From Moraxella sp. (GTDB lineage Bacteria > Pseudomonadota > Gammaproteobacteria > Pseudomonadales > Moraxellaceae): DNA of 51,289 bases. The stretch is from the NCBI GenBank assembly GCA_030528385.1, contig JAUMYZ010000015.1:1-51289 (forward strand), given 5' to 3'. Below the pieces are notes generated by a model. The model did no database searches. It was not told the origin of the DNA and saw nothing but the letters and a program-made list of their open reading frames with translations. How positions within the stretch are numbered: position 1 is the first letter of the stretch; the number at the start of each line of letters is the position of its first letter. The position numbers and the translations under genes are program-made. Shown one piece after another: positions 5,962 to 35,725 of the stretch.

Positions 5962-8706
5962 ATGACCATCTATTATAAAGATACCGACCATGTTGAGACC
6001 CAAGAGTGGTTGGACGCGTTTGAATCGGTGATTAAAAATGCCAACAAAGAGCGCGCCCAATTTTTATTAAAAGCGTTGTACAACATGGCGGTACAAGAAG
6101 GCTTGCCCTTTAACCGTTTGGACACCGCTTACATCAACACCATCCCTGTTGAAGATGAGCCGATTTATCCAGGTGATTTGCACATGGAGCGTAAGATTCG
6201 TGCGCTGGTGCGTTACAACGCCTTGGCGATGGTCATGAAAGCCAATCAAAACGACGATGAGTTGGGCGGGCACTTGGCAACCTTTGCGTCATCAGCAACT
6301 TTGTATGAGACAGGGTTTAACCATTTTTGGCGTGCTGCCGACGAGAACTTTGGTGGCGATTTGATTTATTATCAAGGTCATGGTGCCCCTGGCATGTATG
6401 CGCGTTCTTTTTTGGAAGGGCGCTTGTCCGAAGAGCAACTTGGCAACTTTCGTCGCGAAGTGGGCGGCAAAGGCTTGTCCAGCTATCCACACCCGTATTT
6501 GATGCCCGATTATTGGCAGTTTCCTACCGTGTCTATGGGTCTTGGGCCGTTGATGAGCATTTATCAGGCACATATCCAAAAGTATTTGACCAATCGTGGT
6601 TTGCTCAAAGACGAAAACCGTAAAGTCTGGGCGTTTTTGGGCGATGGTGAAACGGACGAGCCAGAGAGTTTGGGTGCCATTTCTATGGCGGGTCGTGAGA
6701 AACTGGACAATCTTATTTGGGTGATTAACTGTAATTTGCAGCGCCTTGATGGTCCTGTGCGCGGCAACGGCAAGATTATCCAAGAACTAGAATCGGTGTT
6801 TCGCGGCGCAGGCTGGCGCGTGATTAAGGTCATTTGGGGCGATAAATGGGACAGTTTGCTTGCCAAAGATGACACAGGCGTGCTCAAACACCGCATGGAA
6901 GAAGTGGTGGACGGTGAATATCAGCTCTACGAAGCGCGTGATGGGGCGTTTACCCGCAGAGAGTTTTTTTGCAAATACCCTGAACTTGAAAAGATGGTCA
7001 AGCACTTGTCCGATGATGAGATTCAGCGCCTAAATCGCGGTGGTCATGACCCCAAAAAAGTGTATGCCGCTTACTGTGAAGCCATGAAAACCAAAGACCA
7101 ACCAACGGTGATTTTGGTAAAAACCATCAAAGGTTATGGGTTGTCTAGCCAAATCCAAGCCGTCAATAAAGCCCACCAAATCAAAAAGCTGGACGAAAGT
7201 GGACTAAAATATTTCCGCGACCGTTTTGATTTGCCATTTACAGACGAACAGCTAAAAGAGTTGCCCTTTTATCGCCCCAGTGAAGACAGCGCCGAGTACA
7301 AATATTTGATGGGTCGCCGCCAAGCATTGGGCGGGCATCTGCCTGCGCGTCGCAGTGGGCACATTGCTTTACAAATTCCAGAATTGTCTGTCTTTGATGC
7401 GGTGTTGCAAGGTTCTAAAGGCAAAGAGCAATCCACCACGATGGTTTTTGTACGTCTGTTGTCATCACTGTTAAAGGATAAAGCGCTCAATAAATATGTG
7501 GTGCCGATTGTTCCTGACGAAGCGCGCACCTTTGGCTTAGAAGGCATGTTCCGTCAGCTTGGCATTTATTCGTCGGTTGGACAAAATTACGTTGCTGAAG
7601 ACGCCGAAGCCTTGATGGGCTATAAAGAAGCCAAAAATGGACACATGCTTGAAGAAGGTATCAACGAAGCGGGGGCGATGAGTGCGTGGATTGCTTTGGC
7701 GACCAGTTATTCGGTCAATGCCTTGCCGATGATTCCGATGTACATTTATTATTCTATGTTTGGTTTTCAGCGCATTGGCGATTTGGCGTGGGCGGCAGGC
7801 GACTGTCAAGCGCAAGGCTTCTTGTTTGGGGCAACGGCGGGTCGCACCACGCTCAACGGCGAAGGCTTGCAGCACCAAGATGGACACAGCCATATCTTAT
7901 TTGGTACCGTGCCCAACTGCGTAACTTATGACCCGTGTTTTGGTTATGAACTGGCGGTGATTATGCACGACGGTTTGCGCCGTATGTATGGCGAAGGTGA
8001 GCGCGTTTATTATTACATCACTTTGATGAACGAAAATTATGACCAGCCTGCCATGCCACAAGGCGCAGAAGAAGGCATTAAGCGTGGCATGTATTTGCTA
8101 GAAGACAATGGCTCAGTCCAAGTACAGCTTTTGGGCTCTGGGGTGATTTTGCGTGAAGTACAAAAAGCAGCGCAAATTTTAGCCAAAGAGTTTGGTATTG
8201 CCGCCAATGTGTGGAGTGTTACCAGCTTTAATGAGCTGACCCGCGATGGCATGGCGTGCGACGATTATAACCGCTTGCACCCAACCGCCCAACAAAAAAC
8301 GCCTTGGGTTACCAGCCAGCTTGCGCCACATCAGGGTATTGTGGTGGCAGCGACCGACTATATGCGCAATTACGCCGAGCAAATTCGCGGTTGGTTGCCT
8401 GACAATCGCTCTTATACGACCTTGGGCACCGATGGTTTTGGGCGTTCTGATTCACGCCAGCAGCTGCGCAGTTTCTTTAATGTCAATGCCGAACACATCG
8501 TGGTGGCAACCCTAAAAGAGCTGGCAGACGATGGACAATTAAGTGCGCAAGTGGTACAAGACGCCATTGAGCGCTTTGCCATTGACGCTGACCAAGCCCC
8601 AGCATGGCAGCCGCAGCCGCATTATGATCATTTCCCAGACGCGCCCCCTGTGTCGGTCAATGCCAATCCGCTGCCTGTGCCCGAACTTGTTGACGAAGAC
8701 AAATAA
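5962..8706 (+). CDS. aceE: Pyruvate dehydrogenase E1 component (homodimeric)
   Basis: E1 decarboxylates pyruvate with thiamine diphosphate and transfers the acetyl group to the lipoyl arm of AceF. The 914-residue length fits the single-chain E1 of proteobacteria (E. coli 887). The ThDP motif begins at GDGETDEPES and ends NCNLQRLDGPVRGN (about residues 228-268). Other family signatures are YYQGHGAPGMYARSFLEGRL near 134-153 and ATAGRTTLNGEGLQHQDGHS near 640. The start ATG has AGGA at 5951-5954, seven bases away. aceF follows after 18 bp, so the two form an operon; no lpd gene follows, so E3 must be encoded elsewhere. Confidence 0.97.
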   Translation: MTIYYKDTDHVETQEWLDAFESVIKNANKERAQFLLKALYNMAVQEGLPFNRLDTAYINTIPVEDEPIYPGDLHMERKIRALVRYNALAMVMKANQNDDELGGHLATFASSATLYETGFNHFWRAADENFGGDLIYYQGHGAPGMYARSFLEGRLSEEQLGNFRREVGGKGLSSYPHPYLMPDYWQFPTVSMGLGPLMSIYQAHIQKYLTNRGLLKDENRKVWAFLGDGETDEPESLGAISMAGREKLDNLIWVINCNLQRLDGPVRGNGKIIQELESVFRGAGWRVIKVIWGDKWDSLLAKDDTGVLKHRMEEVVDGEYQLYEARDGAFTRREFFCKYPELEKMVKHLSDDEIQRLNRGGHDPKKVYAAYCEAMKTKDQPTVILVKTIKGYGLSSQIQAVNKAHQIKKLDESGLKYFRDRFDLPFTDEQLKELPFYRPSEDSAEYKYLMGRRQALGGHLPARRSGHIALQIPELSVFDAVLQGSKGKEQSTTMVFVRLLSSLLKDKALNKYVVPIVPDEARTFGLEGMFRQLGIYSSVGQNYVAEDAEALMGYKEAKNGHMLEEGINEAGAMSAWIALATSYSVNALPMIPMYIYYSMFGFQRIGDLAWAAGDCQAQGFLFGATAGRTTLNGEGLQHQDGHSHILFGTVPNCVTYDPCFGYELAVIMHDGLRRMYGEGERVYYYITLMNENYDQPAMPQGAEEGIKRGMYLLEDNGSVQVQLLGSGVILREVQKAAQILAKEFGIAANVWSVTSFNELTRDGMACDDYNRLHPTAQQKTPWVTSQLAPHQGIVVAATDYMRNYAEQIRGWLPDNRSYTTLGTDGFGRSDSRQQLRSFFNVNAEHIVVATLKELADDGQLSAQVVQDAIERFAIDADQAPAWQPQPHYDHFPDAPPVSVNANPLPVPELVDEDK

Positions 8707-31087: not shown

Positions 31088-31951
31088 TTAACGGGGTTTA
31101 AAACCACGATGTACCGCCACGATACCGCCGGTTAAATTGTGATAATCACAATTGACAAAACCTGCTTGCTCCATCATCTGTTTTAACGTGGCTTGGTCGG
31201 GGTGCATGCGAATACTTTCTGCCAAATATTGATAACTGTCGCCATCGCCTGCCACGATTTTGCCCATGAGTGGTAGGGCGGTAAAGGAGTATAGGTCGTA
31301 GGCTTTGGACAGTGGCTCAAACACAGGTTTGCTAAACTCTAACACGAGCAGTCGCCCACTTGGTTTTAGCACTCGCCACATGGCTTCTAGGGCTTTTTGT
31401 TTGTCGGTAACGTTACGCAGTCCAAAGCTGATTGTTACCAAATCAAAAGAATTGTCATCAAAGGGCGTGAGCGTTTCGGCATTGGCAAGTACAAAATCCA
31501 CGTTGTTACAGCCAGCATTAATCAGGCGAGTACGCCCAACTTCTAGCATGGCTTCGTTAATGTCAGAAAGCACCACGCGTCCACTTCGCCCCACTTCTTT
31601 GCTAAATGCTTTTGCCAAATCGCCCGTGCCGCCAGCAATATCAAGCACATTTTGACCGGCACGCACGCCACTCATTTTGATGGCAAAACGCTTCCACAGC
31701 CGGTGAATGCCAAAGCTCATCAAATCGTTCATGATGTCATATTTACTGGCAACAGACGTAAACACTTGTCCGACTTTGGCTTCTTTGTCATGAGCATTGA
31801 TGGTTTGGTAGCCAAAATGCGTGGTTTCGCCCACATTTTTAGAATAACGGTTGTCAGCTTGCTCGCCTGCGGGTGTTTGCATGGCGGATTGTCCTTGGGG
31901 CGTGCCGGTGGGGAGAATGTTGGGGTTGGTAAAATCGTTGTCGGTGCTCAT
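31088..31951 (-). CDS. ubiE: Ubiquinone/menaquinone C-methyltransferase UbiE
   Basis: UbiE is the SAM-dependent methyltransferase that methylates the quinone ring at C2 in ubiquinone and menaquinone synthesis. In the 287-residue protein, the SAM motif [12 protein letters not shown] is near residue 102 and the family signatures [14 protein letters not shown] and [15 protein letters not shown] are clear. I use the ATG at 31949-31951, with GGA about eight bases upstream; a TTG 15 codons earlier is possible. Even so, about 35 residues rich in Thr, Gly and Gln precede the region matching E. coli UbiE (251 residues). It begins the ubiE-(ubiJ)-ubiB operon. Confidence 0.94.
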
Positions 31952-32043: not shown

Positions 32044-32070
32044 AAAAAACCCAGCGATAAAGCTGAGTTT
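32044..32070 (-). terminator. Terminator downstream of the acidic paralogue pair
   Basis: On the minus strand AACTCAGC and GCTGGGTT (one G-U pair) form an 8-bp stem around a six-base loop, followed by six T residues. It ends transcription of the genes at 32.1-32.9 kb before ubiE. Confidence 0.8.
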
Positions 32071-32095
32071 GGGGTTAATTTGAGCTGGTAAACTT

Positions 32096-32565
32096 GGGTC
32101 AATACACATCAAAATAGGCGTAATAGTCTATGTCAAAAACAGTGGACAAACGCTCTAAAATGCCAGCCGACTTGGCAGTAAATGACAAATCCACTTTATC
32201 ATTTTCATCATGAAATGGCACATAAACATGAATAATACTTTGTTCATGTTTATCAAAAAATGCGATATTTTGGTGATAATCAATAACACCAATAGCGTAT
32301 TCAAGCCAATCACCAAAGCTGTCGCTTTCACCTTTAATGTGCAGATAAATCCTATCGCCATTCTTGGAGAATGAAGTGCTTAAAGCATCATGGCTATTTG
32401 CATGGTTTAACACTTCTTCTTGGTGGCAAATCTCAAAAGCAATTACCCAATCTATTTTAAAAGTTATCATGATGGTGTCTTATGGTCTATTATCAAGCCT
32501 TTGTAATTTTTTGATGACTTGGTGGGTCAATACACATCAAAATAGGCGTAATAGTCTATGTCAAA
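32096..32565. repeat. 42-bp identical direct repeat at 3' ends of paralogues
   Basis: Bases 32096-32137 and 32524-32565 are identical. They encode the last 12 residues and stop of both paralogues plus three to four bases beyond. The rest of the two genes is much more divergent, so the identity points to recent recombination, gene conversion or cassette exchange using this end. Confidence 0.9.
32099..32470 (-). CDS. Small acidic protein, tandem paralogue 1
   Basis: I do not recognise a family. The 123-residue protein is acidic, soluble and has no signal peptide. It shares its whole plan with the frameshifted gene upstream at 32527-32896: an N-terminal strand ending in AFEIC, a central GDWLEYAIGVIDY motif near 60, an FF pair, a VPFHDEN segment, and an identical C-terminus FDIDYYAYFDVY. 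Small acidic proteins duplicated in tandem with variable bodies are often immunity proteins, but no toxin gene is nearby, so this is only a guess. The start SD is weak. Confidence 0.6.
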   Translation of the reverse strand: MITFKIDWVIAFEICHQEEVLNHANSHDALSTSFSKNGDRIYLHIKGESDSFGDWLEYAIGVIDYHQNIAFFDKHEQSIIHVYVPFHDENDKVDLSFTAKSAGILERLSTVFDIDYYAYFDVY

Positions 32566-32896
32566 CAGTACAGACAACTGACGTAAAACAATGGCATGTG
32601 TGGCATGAAACAACAAATCGGCAGTTTGATGATTTTCATCAAATGGCAAATTTAAGTGCAAAATACCACTGTCTATTTTTTTTAAAAAAGTCTTTGTGTT
32701 TGGTATAATCAATCAAAGACAGGGTTTCATTCAGCCAATCGGACAATTTGTCAAAGGATTTGTGGTTAAAGATGAGAAGTATATCGTCATTTTCTACACA
32801 CAATTCTATCAAATGGGGATAGTGATGATTTTTTAGCCAAGTTTCAACATCAGTACGATAGTCGGCTCTAAAACAAAGGGTTAAATCGGCTTTCAT
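32527..32896 (-). pseudogene. Tandem paralogue 2, interrupted at an A8 tract
   Basis: This is a paralogue of the preceding entry, split by a frameshift. The first frame (ATG at 32896, KADLTLCFRADYRTD) runs through SDWLNETLSLIDY and DFFKK, then leaves register in eight A residues (minus strand; plus T-run 32676-32683). The second frame resumes IDSGILHLNLPFDENH and ends in the identical FDIDYYAYFDVY. Seven A residues would give a continuous 122-residue protein with exactly the same FF-to-PF spacing as paralogue 1. The state may be a +1 mutation, a phase-OFF variant, or corrected by slippage or -1 frameshifting on the A-tract. It could also be an assembly error. Confidence 0.7.
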
Positions 32897-32944: not shown

Positions 32945-33889
32945 TCACTTTTTATCAAACTGATTTTGGCACAGTTTAATAAATTCTTGTCCAAATTTAC
33001 GAATGTCGCTGTCATCACGCACGGCAATCCAACTGGTAAACCGACCAAAATGCGTAATCGGAATGGCAACCAAATCAGAATAGTGCTTGGGCTCGTAAGC
33101 CATCTCGGCGATGATACCCACACCAAGCCCCGCCGACACATAAGTGCTAATCACATCAGAGTCCAAGGCAGACAAAATCACATCAGGGGTCAAACCTGCC
33201 TTGGCAAAGGCTTTATCTATCGCACTTCTGCCTGTAAAACCGCCATGATAAGTAACGATGGGATAGCTTGCCAATGTTGGCAAATCCACGCTGTCCACCA
33301 TGTCTGCAAACTGGGCAAGTTCATGGTCTTTGGGCACGATGACCACGTGCGACCAGTCGTAGTAGCGATGACAACGAAGCACGCTGTTGTTTAACAGACT
33401 TTCGGTGGCAATGCCAATGTCCGCTTGCCCACGAATGACCATTTGGGCGATGGTTTCGGGGTCAGCTTGTTGTAAAATCAGATTAACCTTGTTAAATTTT
33501 TTACGAAAGGTCTTGACGATGCTGGGCAATACATAACGGGCTTGGGTGTGGGTGGTGGCAACGGTAAGCGTGCCTTCTTGGGCATTATTAAAGTCAAGGC
33601 TTAAATTTTCTATGGTGCGAATTTCAGCAAAAATCGCTTCAATGTGGGGCAGCAGTGCCTTACCAATGGGGGTAAGTCCCGTTAGGCGTTTGCCTTGGCG
33701 GGTAAAGACGTCGGTTTTAAGCTGATTTTCTAGGGCGGCGATTTGCTTGGACAAGCTAGATTGACTGGTGTGCAGTCTTTCGGCGGCTTGGCTAAGGTTA
33801 TAACCATTAACCACTGTGTGCCAAACGGTCTCAAGCTGTTTGAGCTGAATTTGTAAGTGTTTTTGGTTAATCACCACATCAATCGCCAT
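32945..33889 (-). CDS. CysB-type LysR-family regulator
   Basis: A 314-residue LysR-type transcription factor. The N-terminal helix-turn-helix (LSQAAERLHTSQSSLSKQIAALENQL, about residues 29-54) and the KxLTxxTPxGxALLP linker resemble CysB/Cbl, the activators of sulfate and sulfonate assimilation that respond to N-acetylserine or adenosine phosphosulfate. The effector domain shows TVATTHTQARYVLP, a CysB-like segment with the TTHTQARY motif. AGGA lies eight bases before the ATG at 33887-33889; the longer frame to 33976 lacks support. Whether it is CysB itself cannot be settled without regulon data. Confidence 0.85.
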   Translation of the reverse strand: MAIDVVINQKHLQIQLKQLETVWHTVVNGYNLSQAAERLHTSQSSLSKQIAALENQLKTDVFTRQGKRLTGLTPIGKALLPHIEAIFAEIRTIENLSLDFNNAQEGTLTVATTHTQARYVLPSIVKTFRKKFNKVNLILQQADPETIAQMVIRGQADIGIATESLLNNSVLRCHRYYDWSHVVIVPKDHELAQFADMVDSVDLPTLASYPIVTYHGGFTGRSAIDKAFAKAGLTPDVILSALDSDVISTYVSAGLGVGIIAEMAYEPKHYSDLVAIPITHFGRFTSWIAVRDDSDIRKFGQEFIKLCQNQFDKK

Positions 33890-34135
33890 AAGATGTATCC
33901 TTTGTATTGTTTGTTGGGTGCGCTCATTATAAAAGCGTGTTGCTAAAAATAAAGTGCCAAATCTGATAAATGTCATGCAAAAATAGAATAAGCAGATGGA
34001 TTTTGTTGTGATTGCAGAATATCAGAACGGTCGTTTTGTTTTGAAAGATGGGCTTTTTAGGCGATTTGTAAAAATGCTTTGTATCTTATCAAATATCGTC
34101 TAAAATGGCGATTTATTTGTAGATGTGATGACAAA

Positions 34136-35725
34136 ATGACAGCGACAAATACACCCCAATCCCAAGTGAGCAGCTGGCAGGCGTTTAAATTGGCGTATGT
34201 CAATCGTCAAGCCTTGGCAATGCTGTTTTTGGGGTTTTCGGCAGGGATACCAATTTTACTGATTTTTAGCAGTTTGGGGCTGTGGTTGCGTGAAGCGGGT
34301 ATTGACCGAGCCACCGTAACCATGTTCAGTTGGGCGGCTTTGGGCTATTCTTTTAAATTTATTTGGTCGCCTTTGGTAGATACGCTGCCTTTACCAATAA
34401 TAAATCGGTGGTTGGGGCACAGACGTTCTTGGCTCTTTTTTACCCAAGTGATGGTCATCATCGCCATTTGTGTGATGGCAAATACCGACCCTGTGGGCAA
34501 CGCACTGACAGTGATGGCGATGGGCGCGGTGCTTTTGGGTTTTGCATCGGCCACCCAAGACATTGTCATTGACGCGTATCGGATTGAGTGTGCCGCCAGC
34601 GAGCAACAGACCGCCTTGTCGGCTTGTTATGTGGGCGGTTATCGCATTGGTATGATTGTCTCAGGGGCAGGCGCGTTGTATTTGGCGGACTTTTTTGGCT
34701 CAACCGAAGCGGCTTATAGTTATGCAGCGTGGCAAAAAACCTACCTAATAATGGCAGCAACCATGCTCATTGGGGTGGCAACAACACTGTCCATTCGTGA
34801 ACCACAGTTTAGGGTGAACAAAGCCACCTTGCCAACGATGGATTATGTGCGTTTGGTGGCGGTGTTTGCTTTGTCGGTGGTTGCCTTTATTATCGCATAT
34901 CGTTGGTTGGGGGGGGTGTTGCCAGAGACTGACGGTGTTGGTCTGGCTTTTTTGCTTGGCTGCGTGCAGTTTGTTGGCAGTGGCGTGGTGATGGCAACTG
35001 TTGGGCTGCTGCTGGTACAAACAGGCGTGGTTGCCAAACAAGTTGCCAATGAGACATGGATAACGCCGATTACTGACTTTTTTAAGCGTTATGGCAAAAA
35101 AGCCATGTTGGTGCTGGCATTGATTGGCCTGTATCGCATTTCTGACATTGTGGCGGGCAACATCTCCAACTTGTTTTATCAAGACTTAGGATTTAGCAAA
35201 ACCCAAATTGCCGACGCTGTCAAGGTGGTGGGGGTGATTTCGTCCATTGGCGGCGCTTTTGTTGGGGGGTGGGTTGCCCAAAAAATCGGCGTGATAAAAG
35301 CGATGATGGTTGGGGCGATATTGGCTTGTATCACCAATTTGTTATTTATTTTGCTGTTTTATGCCACCAACATTGCTACGATGTATGTGGCGGTGATTTT
35401 GGATAATTTGGCGGCAGGTTTGGCAACGGGCGTATTTATTGCCTTTTTGTCGGCTTTGACGTCTATTCGCTTTACGGCGGTGCAGTATGCCTTGTTTTCA
35501 TCACTGATGACTCTGTCGCCCAAGATTTTGGGGGGGTATTCAGGGGCGATTGTGGAAGCGACCAGTTATCCTGTCTTTTTTATGATTACCTTTTTGATGG
35601 GCGTGCCTGTGTTGTTGTTGGTGTATTTGGTGGGCAAATACATTGATTTGGGCGATGACAAATTGACCTTTAATGATGAACAAAATAACAAATCCCACGA
35701 TAACTCAAATAAAAAAACAGTATAA
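34136..35725 (+). CDS. ampG: AmpG-family muropeptide MFS transporter
   Basis: AmpG imports GlcNAc-anhydro-muropeptides released during cell-wall turnover, feeding recycling and, in some bacteria, AmpC induction. The 529-residue protein has about 14 hydrophobic segments. AmpG features include FLGFSAGIPILLIFSSLGLWLREAGI, the SFKFIWSPLVDTLPLP stretch and ATQDIVIDAYRIE. The ATG at 34136 is chosen; an in-frame TTG 19 codons earlier is unsupported. Its SD is weak. The 3' end overlaps prmC by 53 bp. The start of an overlapping operon ampG-prmC-moeB-like-ABC1 is likely. Confidence 0.9.
   Translation: MTATNTPQSQVSSWQAFKLAYVNRQALAMLFLGFSAGIPILLIFSSLGLWLREAGIDRATVTMFSWAALGYSFKFIWSPLVDTLPLPIINRWLGHRRSWLFFTQVMVIIAICVMANTDPVGNALTVMAMGAVLLGFASATQDIVIDAYRIECAASEQQTALSACYVGGYRIGMIVSGAGALYLADFFGSTEAAYSYAAWQKTYLIMAATMLIGVATTLSIREPQFRVNKATLPTMDYVRLVAVFALSVVAFIIAYRWLGGVLPETDGVGLAFLLGCVQFVGSGVVMATVGLLLVQTGVVAKQVANETWITPITDFFKRYGKKAMLVLALIGLYRISDIVAGNISNLFYQDLGFSKTQIADAVKVVGVISSIGGAFVGGWVAQKIGVIKAMMVGAILACITNLLFILLFYATNIATMYVAVILDNLAAGLATGVFIAFLSALTSIRFTAVQYALFSSLMTLSPKILGGYSGAIVEATSYPVFFMITFLMGVPVLLLVYLVGKYIDLGDDKLTFNDEQNNKSHDNSNKKTV

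Follow-up and report, generated by a model that had tools for sequence, protein, structure and literature searches.

Two related genes lie on the minus strand of the window, by which I mean the whole 51,289-nt stretch of DNA analysed here, between a gene that I take to encode a LysR-type regulator and one that I take to be ubiE, both names being judged from the sequences and not drawn from a family scan. The genome (G000) is a 2.05-Mb draft in 20 contigs, 99.98% complete, and the original prediction had placed both copies at the right coordinates. The features discussed below are:

32945..33889, minus strand: presumed LysR-type regulator gene, upstream flank; 314-aa form, start adopted from a relative
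32527..32896, minus strand: copy 2 as a whole, upstream of copy 1 and split at an A8 tract
32639..32896, minus strand: copy 2, 5' ORF, 85 aa; in-family until the tract, then an out-of-frame tail
32527..32712, minus strand: copy 2, 3' ORF as listed, 61 aa, TTG start; in-family from the tract on, without further break
32676..32689, minus strand: T6A8 stretch of the coding strand (A8 at 32676-32683), where the frame of copy 2 breaks
32523..32565, minus strand: 3' end of copy 2, 43 nt that copy 1 repeats without difference at its own end; probably a gene-conversion tract
32099..32470, minus strand: copy 1, a single intact ORF, 123 aa, acidic, pI 4.7; likely a cytosolic immunity protein
32095..32137, minus strand: 3' end of copy 1, probable conversion donor; in the relative Moraxella sp. 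VT-16-12, copy 1 closes with these 43 nt too
32047..32070, minus strand: terminator-like hairpin 3' of copy 1; weak, with 1 found against a mean of 0.8 in shuffles
31088..31951, minus strand: presumed ubiE, downstream flank

Outside the 43-nt identical stretch at their 3' ends, the two copies differ widely. Nevertheless, BLASTP matches copy 1 to copy 2 on either side of the break, at 48% over 54 aa with the 3' ORF (E 2e-16) and at 39% over 28 aa with the 5' ORF (E 5e-6), each as a single comparison, and judged by these alignments the copies are paralogous beyond chance, which bears out both the single family and the duplication that had been proposed. The equal spacing claimed from the FF to the PF motif was also found, at 14 residues in copy 1 and in the uninterrupted copy 2 of VT-16-12, whereas the identical C-terminal coding stood in substance but not in length, being 43 nt (39 of them coding, stop included) instead of 42. 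Searches of Pfam, NCBIfam, PHROGs and PADLOC with the family gave no credible match (only Pfam and PHROGs rows with E values from 0.017 to 0.13), the single match among PDB sequences was a designed binder at E 0.2, and the structure model predicts a common fold at low confidence. The family is therefore still unassigned by name, as originally stated, but the gene neighbourhoods of its relatives give it a likely function.

Distribution and divergence of the pair

Among 22 genomes of the genus, the window's own included, copy 1 as query found a match in three, namely the window's own, VT-16-12 (G011, contig NZ_NKHK02000007.1) and G018, and the 5' ORF of copy 2 in two, the window's own and VT-16-12. 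The latter has the same gene order, a copy 1 that is 85% identical to the window's and a copy 2 that reads through in a single open frame; G018 has only a homologue of copy 1 (65%) at the locus, and another gene occupies the slot of copy 2. A ubiE match is present in 21 of the 22 genomes and the LysR gene within the fetched 1.5-kb flanks in four (the three just named and G008), and in G008 the LysR gene and ubiE stand 65 nt apart, which is the empty site. A profile built from four family members reached four of 348 Moraxellaceae genomes, these being the same three Moraxella genomes and G170, from another genus, where two homologues lie in tandem (E 6.6e-11 and 2.3e-4 with the family profile); in direct BLASTP, the copy 1 homologue of G018 matches the second of these at E 1.4e-12.

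Comparison of the window with VT-16-12 gives dS values of 0.91 for the LysR gene, 0.29 for ubiE and 0.47 for copy 1, and with a pairwise omega (dN/dS) of 0.17 copy 1 looks to be under purifying selection. In copy 2, the 71 codons before the tract have a dS of 0.025, with 1 synonymous and 2 non-synonymous changes, and the 36 codons after it a dS of 0.24. The 5' part of copy 2 (32684-32896) is 98.6% identical between species, as against 87.3% for copy 1, 85.1% for LysR and 92.9% for ubiE, and the binomial probability of as few as 3 differences in 213 sites would be 1.5e-9 at the divergence of copy 1 and 1.3e-4 at that of ubiE, values to be read with the segment having been chosen post hoc. In 90-nt windows, ubiE also reaches 96.7% identity, against 98.9% in the 5' part of copy 2, and the contrast between the two sides of the tract (3/213 versus 8/108 differences, p 0.008) is modest. 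Taken as a whole, the pattern suggests that the 5' part of copy 2 was recently exchanged between lineages by recombination.

The 3' end of copy 2 appears to have a different history. Its last 43 nt in the window are those that end copy 1 in both the window and VT-16-12, and the identity is best accounted for by a short gene conversion in which, within the window's lineage, copy 1 was the donor, an event that the alignments make probable. Copy 2 of VT-16-12 has a different end, which aligns as 13 nt shorter, and this tail may reflect a deletion, with either end possibly ancestral. The C-terminus of that copy, on which the shared-family reading had been made to turn, is homologous beyond the tract, and its last dozen residues differ.

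The frame break in copy 2

The 5' and 3' ORFs of copy 2 lie in different frames and part at the A8 tract, exactly where the break had been predicted; on the coding strand the eight A residues (T8 on the plus strand) are preceded by T6. No other A or T homopolymer in the window is as long, 15 having seven residues and 99 having six, and since the fall-off in run length predicts about one A/T run of eight, the existence of this one is as expected. The tract of VT-16-12 differs in length by one, and its copy 2 is uninterrupted. Decay is the probable cause of the break, and the break looks young, as the 3' piece is otherwise open; from the letters of one assembly, decay seems likelier than either a homopolymer error or phase variation.

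If the homopolymer had been misread in sequencing or assembly, copy 2 would actually be intact, and such an error, rather unlikely in my estimate, would agree with a sole break that consists of a one-base homopolymer difference and with the closeness of the rest of copy 2, bar its last residues, to VT-16-12 (98.6% before the tract and 92.6% after it), but the judgement is made from the assembled letters of a 20-contig draft. An immunity gene that is phase-variable, with the A8 slipping at replication and a population mixing cells that have copy 2 in frame with cells that have it out of frame, would similarly fit a 3' piece without further break and a tract that is one off that of VT-16-12 and longer than any other A or T run in the window; I nonetheless hold it to be scarcely probable, since the run-length counts of the window predict about this many such tracts, the comparison rests on one genome per species, and copy 2 of VT-16-12, with its different and shorter 3' end, may be decaying too. 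Eight A residues are also short for a contingency tract. Recoding would yield the full-length product through either a programmed -1 frameshift of the ribosome or slippage during transcription. In its favour, the coding strand is A-rich and slippery at the tract, but a ribosome shifted there by -1 would meet a stop immediately, and it is the +1/-2 frame that holds the 3' piece, so that +1 or -2 would be required and the -1 frameshifting first proposed is not supported; VT-16-12, furthermore, needs no shift to encode the protein, so that the recoding does not look conserved and recoding of either kind is exceedingly improbable, slippage of the transcript at the tract sharing this estimate and being compatible with the sequence alone.

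Elsewhere in the window there is a G8 tract at 34909-34916, the only run of eight G or C, which is a candidate contingency tract and lies inside an ORF (34079-35725) that presumably encodes an AmpG-like permease.

Ntox33 genes beside the family in relatives

The neighbourhoods of the relatives point to the likely function. In G170, two family homologues lie directly downstream of a gene whose 292-aa product begins, by eye, like a signal peptide and in its last 58 residues matches Ntox33 (Pfam PF15533) at 34.3 bits, or at 38.6 bits for the domain alone, against a cut-off of 28.4; the stop of this toxin gene overlaps the ATG of the first homologue (with the start as taken here) and the second homologue is next. 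In G018, the gene in the slot of copy 2 encodes a secreted-looking, Ntox33-like protein of 95 aa and ends 22 nt before the copy 1 homologue. This protein matches the G170 domain at 50% over 52 aa (E 1e-14; E 2.1e-11 in the genome-wide search), is without the last residues of the Ntox33 domain, and by itself gives no Pfam match at E 1.

A second site in G018 carries an Ntox33-like stretch (36%, E 6.3e-6) broken by two stops, and behind it four fragments of the family in colinear order, which rank first to fourth in a six-frame scan over 12 kb; individually they are weak, at E 1.9e-4, 0.0053, 0.033 and 0.13 with the next match elsewhere on the stretch at 0.15, and a single-protein tblastn reaches only E 0.03 for them. 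The site (L063, about 6619-7169) has the form of a decayed toxin-immunity unit between genes that I take to be cytochrome b-like and ahpF-like. With the G170 domain as query, the 348 Moraxellaceae genomes yielded four places in three genomes, one in G170, two in G018 and one in G216. The last of these (E 0.0063) was dropped as it falls inside a 499-aa ORF of another kind, and its 3.2-kb locus contained no family member, the best match there being at E 0.39. A family member therefore follows the Ntox33-like sequence at all three places kept of the four found, or at three of four if that in G216 is true Ntox33; the three sites come from two genera but only two genomes, and one of them is a pseudogene.

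Zhang et al. described Ntox33 in 2012 as an alpha+beta domain with the motifs [DN]xHxxK and DxxxD, and the immunity entry in that passage of their survey is '-', so the present family would be one (PMC3482391); a passage of a Morganella survey calls the domain a predicted RNase (PMC13129497). The proteins of the relatives are likewise secreted-looking with a basic C-terminal domain, that of G170 lies above the Pfam cut-off, and by eye each of the two has one motif exact: DAHDLK in G170, where G018 has GPHQIK, retaining H and K with G as its first residue, and DKLKD in G018, which aligns with NKISD in G170, N standing for the first D. The full-length immunity proteins have pI values of 4.5-5.7 and no signal peptide (by eye), as against 8.7-9.8 for the toxin domains. 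No PDB sequence matched the G170 toxin protein below E 0.04.

The G170 protein (L040, 7590-8468) has a further likeness, in that its residues 46-195 match at 29% (E 4e-6) a TspB-related protein encoded on pA19P2, a small Psychrobacter plasmid that also bears II/X replication, DUF2523 and Zot-domain genes. Genes of these three kinds are carried by filamentous phages, and it is possible, to go by this match, that this polymorphic toxin has a leader of the phage adsorption-protein kind.

Another partner has been put forward for this type of toxin: a part of a study of a Salmonella Rhs-Ntox33 protein proposes a DUF4279 (PF14106) protein, which, like members of the present family, is small and has its gene next to one for Ntox33 (PMC13304343). 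When the family was compared with profiles of 14 of 16 fetched DUF4279 member domains (the other two, as excised, gave no clean translation), or of 5 of them, the C-terminal stretches aligned in register in some comparisons, and the six hhalign runs gave probabilities of about 1% or less with E values of 0.05-0.33, which are not significant. One DUF4279 member had no relative among PDB sequences.

The orphan-immunity reading

In the window's genome, the G170 Ntox33 domain found 0 first-look candidates, and searches with PF15533 (at E 0.01) and with a two-row toxin profile (at E 0.001) had candidates but no match. In wider searches, PF15533 found 0 of 369 genomes of the class and the two-row profile 0 of 378 of the phylum, samples that gave no known positive, so that these two counts neither support nor refute the reading. 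The original prediction had noted that no toxin is present, which agrees with the searches of this genome, but its relatives supply an Ntox33 partner, and the guess that small acidic tandem proteins might be immunity proteins is backed by homologues that adjoin Ntox33 genes. With no Ntox33 match in the genome and toxin adjacency in the relatives, I read the pair as orphan immunity genes of an Ntox33-kind polymorphic-toxin system, with a probability of about 0.78, a cognate toxin of another type being possible.

A lineage-specific family of small proteins, unrelated to immunity, might have come to adjoin Ntox33 genes by chance in two genomes, and the rarity of the family, its lack of named relatives and the low-confidence model of a common fold would suit this; however, there are three Ntox33-like sites in two genera, the family follows at each, and the genes overlap or nearly abut at two of the three, which makes coincidence decidedly unlikely. 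At the other extreme, it would be bold to claim everything at once, that is, a new Ntox33 immunity family, orphaned between housekeeping genes and swapped among Moraxella species, with one member switched by a slipping A-tract and the family in another genus guarding a toxin with a filamentous-phage adsorption-protein-like leader, and I give this full combination very little credence.

Orphan immunity genes have a known counterpart in the T6SS arrays of Vibrio cholerae, for which part of the published account describes old effectors replaced, immunity genes kept and frequent homologous recombination, leaving immunity genes in a row without a toxin as in the window's pair (PMC5361080). The pair differs from these arrays in having no secretion cluster noticed beside it, in the type of toxin, in consisting of two copies only, one of them broken, and in being seen between species and not strains.

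Under the orphan-immunity reading, a secreted protein ending in an Ntox33 domain would be followed at once by one or two family genes, as in the relatives, and their small, acidic, cytosolic product would block the basic toxin domain by binding to it. The window's lineage would lack the toxin gene and have retained the immunity genes between the LysR gene and ubiE, where they perhaps protect against toxin-bearing neighbours. Copy 1 would be held by the purifying selection indicated by its dN/dS; copy 2 would probably be in recent decay, a change in homopolymer length having broken its frame, and its end would have been overwritten by the short conversion from copy 1. I infer the neutralisation, the RNase activity, the protection, the decay and the order of these events from the genes as they now stand.

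For Ntox33, the family would provide a testable immunity partner where the survey passage lists none (PMC3482391). The locus itself would show clearly, on a small scale, how orphan immunity genes flanked by housekeeping genes are retained, decay and are probably swapped, with one of the two copies most likely put out of frame recently by ordinary decay. Furthermore, it suggests that small proteins encoded in tandem and bearing no family name can be the products of hidden orphan immunity genes, and that the neighbourhoods of their relatives can reveal them.
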